From assembly GCA_021737425.1 (NCBI GenBank), contig JAIPDZ010000004.1, forward strand, positions 1 through 45,715: a stretch of 45,715 nucleotides of DNA, given 5' to 3'. This stretch comes from Deltaproteobacteria bacterium. GTDB taxonomy: Bacteria > Desulfobacterota > DSM-4660 > Desulfatiglandales > Desulfatiglandaceae. Of this stretch, positions 5,258 to 40,173 are shown piece by piece (position 1 is the first letter of the stretch; each line of letters opens with the position of its first letter). Position numbers and translations under genes: made by a program. Under the pieces are notes generated by a model. That model ran no database searches. It was not told the origin of the DNA and was given only the letters and a program-made list of their open reading frames with translations.

Positions 5258-6331
5258 GTGACACGCACGGAATATCTCATAAGTCAGAAACAGATGGGCC
5301 GGCGCCTTATCGGCGCCTTTCCCGCCCAGTATCCCAAAGAGATCCTGTGGGCCATGAATGCGATCCCTGCTGAGATCTGGGATCCGCCGGTGGATACCAG
5401 TGAGGCCAATGCCCATCTTCAACCCTATATCTGTTCGGTAGTCAGAGCAGGTTTGGCGCTGATTCTGGAGGGAAAGTGCGATATGTTGGACGGCTTTCTC
5501 TTTCCTCACACCTGTGACTCTATTCAGAACCTGGCCTCTATAGTGAACGACTACTTGGGAATCCGAAAACCCTGTTACTTCTTTTATCCTCCCAAGGCCC
5601 CGTATCGGCATTCTTCCAGGCGGTATTTTGTTGAACAACTCAGGGCCCTGGTCACCGCCCTGGAAAAGACCATGGGACCCCTGGACCCGTCCAGCTTCAA
5701 ACAGAGCGTACAACAGGGGTTTGCCCTGGGGGCCCTCCTGGGGGAAATCTATGAACAGAGAAGGGCCGGCACCCTAAACGCACCCAACGCTGATTTTTAC
5801 GGTGTGCTTCGACAAGGGGAGTATCTGCACCCCGAGGATTTCATTCCCAGGCTGGAAGCGTTTAGAAGAACCGCCGAGAGAGAAGACACCTCCGGGCCCG
5901 GGGTGATCCTGAGCGGGGTGCTTCCCAATCCCCCTGAAATACTGAAGCTCCTGGATGCCTCAGGGGTCCGAATTGTGGATGACGATTTTATGAACTGCAG
6001 CAGAAGGTTCCTGATCCACGGGGAACCGGCTCAGGATCCTTTTGAGGCCTTGGCAGATGCTTATTTTTCCTTGCCCCCATGCACTACCAAAAATTCAAGC
6101 ATCCAGGAAAGGATAAACGGCCTTTTGGAAAAAATCGAAAAAAGCGGGGCCAGGGGGGTGATTTTTTATCTGGTAAAATTCTGCGAGCCCGAACTATTTG
6201 ACGTGCCGCTCGTTTCAGAGGCAGTCAAAGACCGTGGCATCCCCACCCTTGTACTGGATGTGGAGATCAATCAGGGGCTCACCGGGCAACTAACCACCCG
6301 AGTGGAGGCCTTTGTGGAGATGATCAGTTGA
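5258..6331 (+). CDS. 2-hydroxyacyl-CoA dehydratase / benzoyl-CoA reductase-like subunit (smaller)
   Basis: A 357-residue member of the HgdA/HgdB, BcrB/BcrC family, whose paired subunits carry [4Fe-4S] clusters and perform one-electron, ATP-driven dehydration or reduction of CoA thioesters. Three cysteines fall where family cluster ligands are expected: C59 (PYICSVVR), C86 (PHTCDSIQN) and C309 (VKFCEPELFD). It begins with GTG at 5258; no strong Shine-Dalgarno is seen, and an in-frame ATG exists 12 codons later. The next gene is a second paralogous subunit 37 bases on, followed by the activase, so the three form a complete electron-activation module. Neighbouring genes do not reveal the substrate. 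Confidence 0.85.
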   Translation: MTRTEYLISQKQMGRRLIGAFPAQYPKEILWAMNAIPAEIWDPPVDTSEANAHLQPYICSVVRAGLALILEGKCDMLDGFLFPHTCDSIQNLASIVNDYLGIRKPCYFFYPPKAPYRHSSRRYFVEQLRALVTALEKTMGPLDPSSFKQSVQQGFALGALLGEIYEQRRAGTLNAPNADFYGVLRQGEYLHPEDFIPRLEAFRRTAEREDTSGPGVILSGVLPNPPEILKLLDASGVRIVDDDFMNCSRRFLIHGEPAQDPFEALADAYFSLPPCTTKNSSIQERINGLLEKIEKSGARGVIFYLVKFCEPELFDVPLVSEAVKDRGIPTLVLDVEINQGLTGQLTTRVEAFVEMIS

Positions 6332-39013: not shown

Positions 39014-39721
39014 TCATCCTCCGCGGGACTTATCTGCGAGAGAAACCATTGTCTTATTGGCCGCTCCCCTCCCGAGGGCCAGCCGGGAGTAGCCGTGTCC
39101 CAAAATAAGCCGTCCCCTCCCGGAATTGGTAATGACCTCCACCACCTCTCCGGGCCTCAACCCCATAGCGGCCAATCTGGCCCGCCCGGCCCTGCCTCCA
39201 CCGATCTCCCTGACCACCACGGTTTCCCCGGGCTTGGCCATGGCCAGGGGCATCAGCGGTCTGCGCTTGGCAGTGCATTCCGAACAAAGGCCATAGATGT
39301 CCATCCGGTGCTGGAGCATATAAAAGCCATACCTGGCCGCCACCTTTCGTTGAAGCCGTTCAATCTCCTCATCGGCGAATTCCAGGATTTTTCCGCATTT
39401 GGTGCATATCAGATGGTCATGGTGCTTCCCCAAGTGCCGGTGTTCATATCGAACGGGTTGATCGTGAAACTGTTTTTTCTGTGCAAAACCCAAGTCCACC
39501 ATTCGATTCATACACTGTTTCACGAATTCGGGCGTCACCCGCAGGCCTCTCGCCCTGGCCAGGCCTACCAATTCATCCAATGTAATGTGCGCCTCTGTGC
39601 TCAGGAAAACGTCCAAGAGCTTCATCCGCTCTTCGATCCGGGCCGTACCCTCTGACTCAATAAGGGCCCTGAAATTTGCCTTTTCGAGATGGTTGCCGTT
39701 GAACATGGTCTGTTTTTTCAT
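39014..39721 (-). CDS. Fur-family repressor fused to a FeoA domain
   Basis: A 235-residue fusion. Residues 15-150 form a Fur domain: a winged helix (LDELVGLARARGLRVTPEFV), a metal site (HRHLGKHHDHLICTKCGK) and a C-terminal Cys pair (CSEC). Residues about 155-230 are FeoA-like: an SH3-type fold starting LAMAKPGETVVVREIGG and RARLAAMGLRPGEVVEVI. Fur regulators bind DNA with Fe(II) or Zn(II); FeoA is normally a small cytoplasmic partner of the FeoB iron channel. The fusion suggests a regulator whose metal response or partner contact is mediated by the FeoA part. No feoB is in the window. It is convergent with the kinase-like gene, 12 bases apart. Confidence 0.9.
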   Translation of the reverse strand: MKKQTMFNGNHLEKANFRALIESEGTARIEERMKLLDVFLSTEAHITLDELVGLARARGLRVTPEFVKQCMNRMVDLGFAQKKQFHDQPVRYEHRHLGKHHDHLICTKCGKILEFADEEIERLQRKVAARYGFYMLQHRMDIYGLCSECTAKRRPLMPLAMAKPGETVVVREIGGGRAGRARLAAMGLRPGEVVEVITNSGRGRLILGHGYSRLALGRGAANKTMVSLADKSRGG

Positions 39722-39756
39722 CTGAGTAACAGTTTAGGCCTCTGAAACGGGGTTAC

Positions 39757-39974
39757 AGGCCATGAGGGGGTCTTTTTCAAAGTCCGTACACCCATGTGAG
39801 TGACCATGGAACGCCCCAGCAAGATTCAAGAGTACGCACTGTTAGGCAGATAGGATCACGTCTCCGACAAGCCATATCCTTTGGGGCTATCAGCAAGGTA
39901 AGTCGAAGCCCCACTGCCGTGAAAGGAAGGGATCCGGAAATTTACGGACTTTGAAAAAGACCCCCTCATGGCCT
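39757..39974. repeat. 218-bp element with perfect 32-bp terminal inverted repeats and a three-way-junction core
   Basis: The arms 39757-39788 and 39943-39974 are perfect reverse complements over 32 bases. Inside, CCATG (39792-39796)/CATGG (39805-39809) form a hairpin. A junction follows: GGCAG (39845-39849)/CTGCC (39914-39918) encloses AGGAT (39852-39856)/ATCCT (39876-39880) and GGGGCT (39883-39888)/AGCCCC (39907-39912), with linkers of only two, two and one bases. CAC (39837-39839)/GTG (39919-39921) extends the outer stem across a five-base bulge. There is no transposase or open frame, and the flanking bases show no obvious target-site duplication. It may be a MITE or a structured RNA. Confidence 0.8.
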
Positions 39975-40025
39975 TCATTCAGGGCTCGTTATTTCAACAT
40001 GCTAAGTTAATACTCATCTGATTAT

Positions 40026-40173
40026 ACGGCGTAGCCGTGCCTGAGGGAACTGGGTGCATGGGAATATAAGGTTCCCCCTAACTCCCGTCAAGCCTGTGAA
40101 GGTTCTCCTTCGGAGTTCTTGCAGGTGCTCTTTTCCTGCGGAGATGTCAGAGCAAAACGGCGAATCTCCCGCC
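40026..40173 (+). promoter_or_regulatory. Array of five hairpins upstream of ribE
   Basis: Consecutive stems are ACGGC/GCCGT (40026-40038), GGGAAC/GTTCCC (40045-40076), a compound stem CCTG-AAG-CTCC/GGAG-CTT-CAGG (40093-40125), TGCTCT/AGAGCA (40126-40154) and GGCG/CGCC (40159-40173). They could form a structured ribE leader. The conserved boxes of the FMN riboswitch are not seen. The same region also carries a promoter-like sequence on the other strand, so a structured 5' region of that transcript or overlapping control is also possible. Confidence 0.5.
40063..40091 (-). promoter_or_regulatory. Possible leftward promoter for fur-feoA
   Basis: On the minus strand, TTGACG (40091-40086), a 17-base spacer and TATATT (40068-40063) resemble a sigma-70 promoter. 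Transcription would start near 40056 and run through the 218-bp inverted-repeat element before the Fur-FeoA start at 39721. No clear Fur box is seen. Confidence 0.4.

Follow-up and report, generated by a model that had tools for sequence, protein, structure and literature searches.

The 218-bp element bounded by perfect 32-bp repeats, located in the 45,715-nucleotide stretch of DNA analyzed here (the window), is best described as the inner, invertible part of a MITE of 288 bp whose core has been kept order-wide as a single-strand fold, a reading to which we assign a probability of roughly 70%. The two arms are 100% complementary and enclose 154 nt, as in the original prediction, and the 218 bp contain neither an ORF nor a transposase. 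While the arms had been placed correctly, the mobile unit extends beyond them: it spans 39726-40013, its outer ends are imperfect, and a target duplication of 8 bp, TCATCTGA, flanks it. On one side of the 218-bp piece the outer end reads GTAACAGTTTAGG..., on the opposite side it is GTATTAACTTAGC... in reverse complement. The element and its surroundings are made up as follows.

39014-39721, minus strand: Fur-FeoA fusion ORF (PF01475 and PF04023), directly downstream of the element in the minus-strand direction
39718-39725, unstranded: left target-site duplication TCATCTGA, which includes the ATG of the fur-feoA ORF as called on the minus strand
39726-40013, plus strand: whole 288-bp MITE
39726-39756, plus strand: left outer end GTAACAGTTTAGGCCTCTGAAACGGGGTTAC
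39757-39788, plus strand: left inner arm, 32-bp perfect inverted repeat and inversion boundary, found with both core orientations
39789-39942, plus strand: core interior, 154 bp, conserved order-wide
39809-39817, plus strand: strand s1, half-sites A1 GAAC and A2 GCCCC
39840-39849, plus strand: strand s2, half-sites X TGTTA and B GGCAG
39883-39892, plus strand: strand s3, half-sites C GGGGC and Y TATCA (A2:C 5/5 and X:Y 4/5 paired in the window copy)
39914-39922, plus strand: strand s4, half-sites D1 CTGCC and D2 GTGA (B:D1 5/5 and A1:D2 2/4 paired in the window copy)
39943-39974, plus strand: right inner arm, 32-bp perfect inverted repeat and inversion boundary
39975-40013, plus strand: right outer end TCATTCAGGGCTCG...GCTAAGTTAATAC, matching the left outer end imperfectly and in inverted orientation
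40014-40021, unstranded: right target-site duplication TCATCTGA
40063-40091, minus strand: promoter-like site TTGACG-17-TATATT, a consensus match only, beyond the element as seen from fur-feoA

The element belongs to a MITE family. It is found at about 15-16 full-length places in its own genome, plus fragments, and the dispersed copies, outer terminal repeats and exact 8-bp target duplications bear out the earlier suggestion of a non-autonomous transposable element. Among 42 elements the duplication length is exactly 8 bp, with a mean match of 81% at this length vs 31-36% at 6, 7, 9 and 10 bp; in a control where left flanks were compared with the right flanks of other elements 7 of 8 positions matched in only 7/1722 cases. 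The same 8-bp length is seen in genomes G015 and G003. At least 25 short relatives (55-123 bp) in the genome of the window have kept the outer ends and the duplications and have no core, and because these copies moved as well the core must be unnecessary for transposition itself. End patterns used in the search for an autonomous partner in G000 and G003 yielded short elements only. The genome has one IS66-type transposase-like gene (PF03050; G000 contig C223, L055:1953-4507), which adjoins a DruA-family gene (PF14236), apparently as one unit; it was rejected as a candidate since its flanks are without MITE ends. A recurrent protein gene beside the copies was not found, the recurring clusters being the element's own translations or ordinary genes, and the core as a coding sequence is not supported, with spacers between its islands that vary by 1-2 nt between genera. 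Several copies have features of their own. In L080 (from 1501, minus strand), and also in L006 and L098, the left outer end of the first MITE hosts a second one (ends CCAATGTCATTAACTTAAG), with AGTTTAGGC duplicated; L017 and L018 hold degenerate cores without the usual outer ends, the arms of L017 still matching each other though unlike those of other copies; and one element copy has a c-di-GMP-I-GGC riboswitch (Rfam RF03167) in its vicinity, at L295:3056-3133.

The family is spread well beyond this genome. Searching with a covariance model built on the interior brought up relatives in five more genera, and a motif pattern run against a single genome per species (84,980 species) returned 83 stretches, almost all from Desulfobacterota; three stray matches (L196, L237 and L247) are without the fourth motif and look like chance. 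With a second covariance model, 24 of 85 genomes from this order gave matches, and when 395 genomes were drawn from across the phylum the five matches obtained all fell inside this same order. Viral contigs, plasmids and phages gave no matches. Copy numbers are often at least 30 per genome, with at least 26 to at least 38 copies scored in G015, G020, G023, G055, G076 and G081. The same core is found in different outer ends, of the GTAAC type with 8-bp duplications in G000, G015 and G003 and of the CAGCAATTC type with 9-bp duplications in G054/G012, and its presence in at least two transposon end types means that the core is separable from any one end. Two conserved cores lie close together in the same orientation at L298:124-259 and 360-495, and in the core of L192 (match 5446-5594, minus strand) islands three and four have an additional GC-rich, hairpin-like insert of 14 nt between them.

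With respect to the outer ends, two orientations of the 218-bp piece occur, in ratios of 7:9 in this genome, 18:16 in a second genus (G015) and 8:3 in a third (G054/G012), where the outer ends are quite different from those of this genome. Orientation changes on core trees number at least 6 in this genome and at least 11 in G015, equal to what is obtained with shuffled labels, and two copies that are 98% identical (L001 and L002) have opposite core orientations. In several genera the inversion breakpoints are exactly the arm borders, and no duplication is found at the core/outer junction. Differences between the arms within copies total 9, vs 34 upon random re-pairing of 5' and 3' arms (0 of 2000 re-pairings were as low), and private variants are present on both arms of the same copy. 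Because the arms match within each copy and orientation is unlinked to core phylogeny, the simplest reading of these sequences is that the 218-bp piece inverts through its arms. Perfect arms had originally been taken to mean either recent arrival or selection for structure; a third possibility, homogenization within each copy by inversion, fits the data. Many of the loci come from metagenome assemblies, and the evidence on orientation is gathered across copies, with each locus seen in one orientation. Draft metagenome assemblies make up most of the genomes, but calls of orientation should be reliable, since 32-bp arms are shorter than usual read lengths. In the elements of G024 (L120, match 1501-1652) and G003 (L354, match 400-533) the perfect arms are ∼64-70 bp and reach the outer ends, so that each is entirely one long inverted repeat enclosing the core.

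Other accounts of the two orientations, and of the position of the window copy, can be weighed against inversion through the arms. Both orientations might have arisen from repeated insertion of the core into the outer element, or from swaps between copies, as the cores of L011, L017 and L018 without the usual outer ends and the sharing of one core between end types with 8- and 9-bp duplications would allow. Orientation, however, changes repeatedly among near-identical copies such as L001 and L002, and both the absence of a duplication at the core/outer junction and breakpoints that match the arms exactly in several genera argue against such insertion, which we consider unlikely. A programmed inverton, in which a dedicated site-specific recombinase would read the arms and switch expression of neighboring genes, could likewise account for a segment bounded by inverted repeats with both orientations across copies and genera, and the window copy does lie where fur-feoA starts, a promoter-like site being present on its other side. 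Yet arm sequences differ strongly between genera that all show flipping, which makes a dedicated recombinase unlikely, and with copies dispersed by the dozen, no recombinase gene seen to recur next to them and no promoter-like site within the window copy's core this reading is quite improbable. The element had also been suggested to be a leader segment of fur-feoA, and a minus-strand transcript from the promoter-like site would indeed have the element as its leader. A cis-regulatory, riboswitch-like leader RNA would agree with the placement of the element immediately upstream of the ORF, which holds, but the insertion is unique, absent in 18/18 orthologous loci, the same element is found elsewhere at unrelated sites and there is no Rfam match, so that a role of this kind is extremely improbable. 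At fur-feoA the element is a private insertion and no conserved regulator; an accidental effect on this one gene is possible.

The interior had been drawn as a closed three-way junction with an additional hairpin, and although all four of the pairings can be found in the letters of the element only one of the three junction stems holds up. GGCAG/CTGCC, helix B:D1 in what follows, is conserved (99% paired) and covarying, while AGGAT/ATCCT is paired in 65% of cells only and GGGGCT/AGCCCC in 82%, with changes on one side only. The conserved partner of GGGGC is instead an upstream GCCCC, which forms a crossing helix that is 99% paired with double changes. The CCATG/CATGG hairpin is not conserved, not even among copies of this genome, and covariation over the whole three-way junction is little above that of shuffles. 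A structured family with covarying stems does therefore exist, with a structure that differs from the one drawn. Shuffled-sequence folding of the 218 nt gives z = -7.8 (+) and -8.3 (-), as opposed to +1.33 and +0.59 for the 154-nt interior alone; the strong scores are due to the arms, and the interior folds no better than shuffles with a tool that ignores pseudoknots. Membership in HEARO or another Rfam family, also raised originally, is not supported: at E values up to 5 no match turned up for the element or for any of its relatives searched.

A MAFFT alignment of 47 diverse cores, made without fitting to structure, contains four near-invariant islands vs ∼40% of columns that differ between genera. 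Each island consists of two adjoining half-sites (s1, NAAC and GCCCC; s2, GGACA and GGCAG; s3, GGGGC and TGTCC; s4, CTGCC and GTTN), and the half-sites pair as A1:D2, A2:C, X:Y and B:D1 to give four helices. In the resulting model every strand would run from helix to helix with no linker bases, forming a four-way junction, and the cyclic strand order s1, s3, s2, s4 would make this junction pseudoknotted. The topology maps onto itself under reverse complementation and, as such a strand-symmetric arrangement predicts, a one-strand model also matched the opposite strand at eight loci. The nearly equal abundance of G.T and A.C mismatches (34 vs 28) favors neither RNA nor ssDNA, and neither strand.

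Over the 47 cores the fraction of paired cells is 99.1% for A2:C and 99.6% for B:D1, with much weaker values for X:Y (78%) and A1:D2 (83%). Double compensatory changes in 10 pairs amount to 47 cells, vs 17.7 ± 3.2 after shuffling, in a count that uses the same sequences from which the junction model was drawn. Those recovered with the motif pattern were preselected for three islands, whereas the covariance-model sequences from other genera, the source of the key compensations, are free of that selection, and the crossing helix A2:C is part of neither covariance model. Compensation in B:D1 took place in separate lineages, from GGCAG/CTGCC to GGCAC/GTGCC and to GGCGG/CCGCC; in A2:C there is a change from GCCCC/GGGGC to GCTCC/GGAGC, the double changes in this helix being few and in single sequences. 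In a tree-based test of co-change, which scores changes on shared branches, the model pairs have a mean -log10 p of 0.838 vs a maximum of 0.377 for 2000 random partner sets with similar numbers of changes (0/2000 as high). Among the best 80 of 8670 column pairs only three are well paired, and all three are in the model. A first covariation test, on an alignment that included the arms, had no power, with the arms misaligned. These covariation results fit a strand-crossing four-way junction that the islands keep through compensatory changes beyond phylogeny.

It might nonetheless be argued that this is an ordinary young MITE, with arms that are perfect from youth and a core whose conservation reflects recent spread and horizontal transfer, the fold having no function. 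The element is multi-copy, with target duplications, its core-less relatives also transpose, and in the early set of 30 sequences the conserved pairs were invariant with few exceptions. Cores of different genera, however, have diverged extensively outside the islands, double compensations such as those in B:D1 fall in separate lineages, and the arms vary between copies yet match within a copy, so that a functionless young element is a rather unlikely explanation. A more specific version of the conserved fold, which we put forward tentatively and at somewhat below even odds, is that the core is an undescribed functional fold with the same topology on both strands, carried across the order on different transposon ends because a protein recognizes the folded strand. 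Inversion between the arms would then be harmless, as either strand folds alike.

The invertible MITE with a conserved core might operate in the following manner. The outer ends would be used in trans by a transposase that makes 8-bp duplications, and the 32-bp arms would be recombination repeats between which the enclosed segment flips, a step for which we infer either intramolecular recombination or replication template switching. Flipping would keep the arms of each copy identical and randomize orientation. The four bipartite strands would pair in the pseudoknotted four-way junction, closed by the long stem of the arms, with the folded strand being either RNA from read-through transcription or ssDNA at replication. 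We further infer a protein that would bind this folded single strand and so help the element to move or persist. The core may raise the chance of mobilization, protect the element RNA or expose the junction to host enzymes at replication.

MITEs are commonly viewed as selfish scraps with an interior of little meaning. In the present MITE the interior is the most conserved part, with a knotted junction held by compensatory change, and it is found inside at least two end types, which suggests that this mobile module of RNA or ssDNA has a function. The family was not found described in literature on MITEs, structured RNAs, inversion and Desulfobacterium. The element resembles HEARO / IscB omega RNA in being structured, RNA-like and dispersed without a protein-coding gene, but differs in having no match in Rfam, 8-9 bp target duplications and long terminal repeats.

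Closer on the DNA side is QMITE2 of Coxiella burnetii, a small prokaryotic MITE with no ORF, terminal inverted repeats, 7-9 bp direct repeats and a stable predicted stem-loop (PMC10969869). The present element is likewise a small ORF-less unit with terminal repeats and direct repeats in this range, and has a core of similar size; unlike that of QMITE2, and of MITEs in general, its core has been conserved from genus to genus, with compensatory changes, and it flips with respect to the outer ends. IStrons, as outlined in PMC4227781, join a group I intron to an insertion sequence and thus also place a structured module on a DNA transposon, whereas here there is no Rfam group I intron match, no ORF and a total of only ∼290 bp. 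In chloroplasts, flip-flop small inversions at stem-loops involve 5-50 bp segments and 11-24 bp repeats (Kim and Lee 2005, as summarized in PMC12928735), with hairpin inverted repeats that similarly allow the enclosed sequence to flip; our case differs, on that summary, in its conserved 154-bp core and in being a bacterial mobile element. Inversion has been reported for the Correia repeat enclosed elements of Neisseria (Elbeyioglu 2017, as cited in PMC10969869), which, going by that citation, are also dispersed MITEs able to invert and often lie beside genes. In contrast to what is related there, it is an inner segment with its own 32-bp arms that would invert inside a longer element in the present family, and the core has a covarying pseudoknotted junction. 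With each copy giving an orientation, a degree of arm matching and a core sequence, the family would provide a natural record of bacterial inversion through arms, repeated over many copies.
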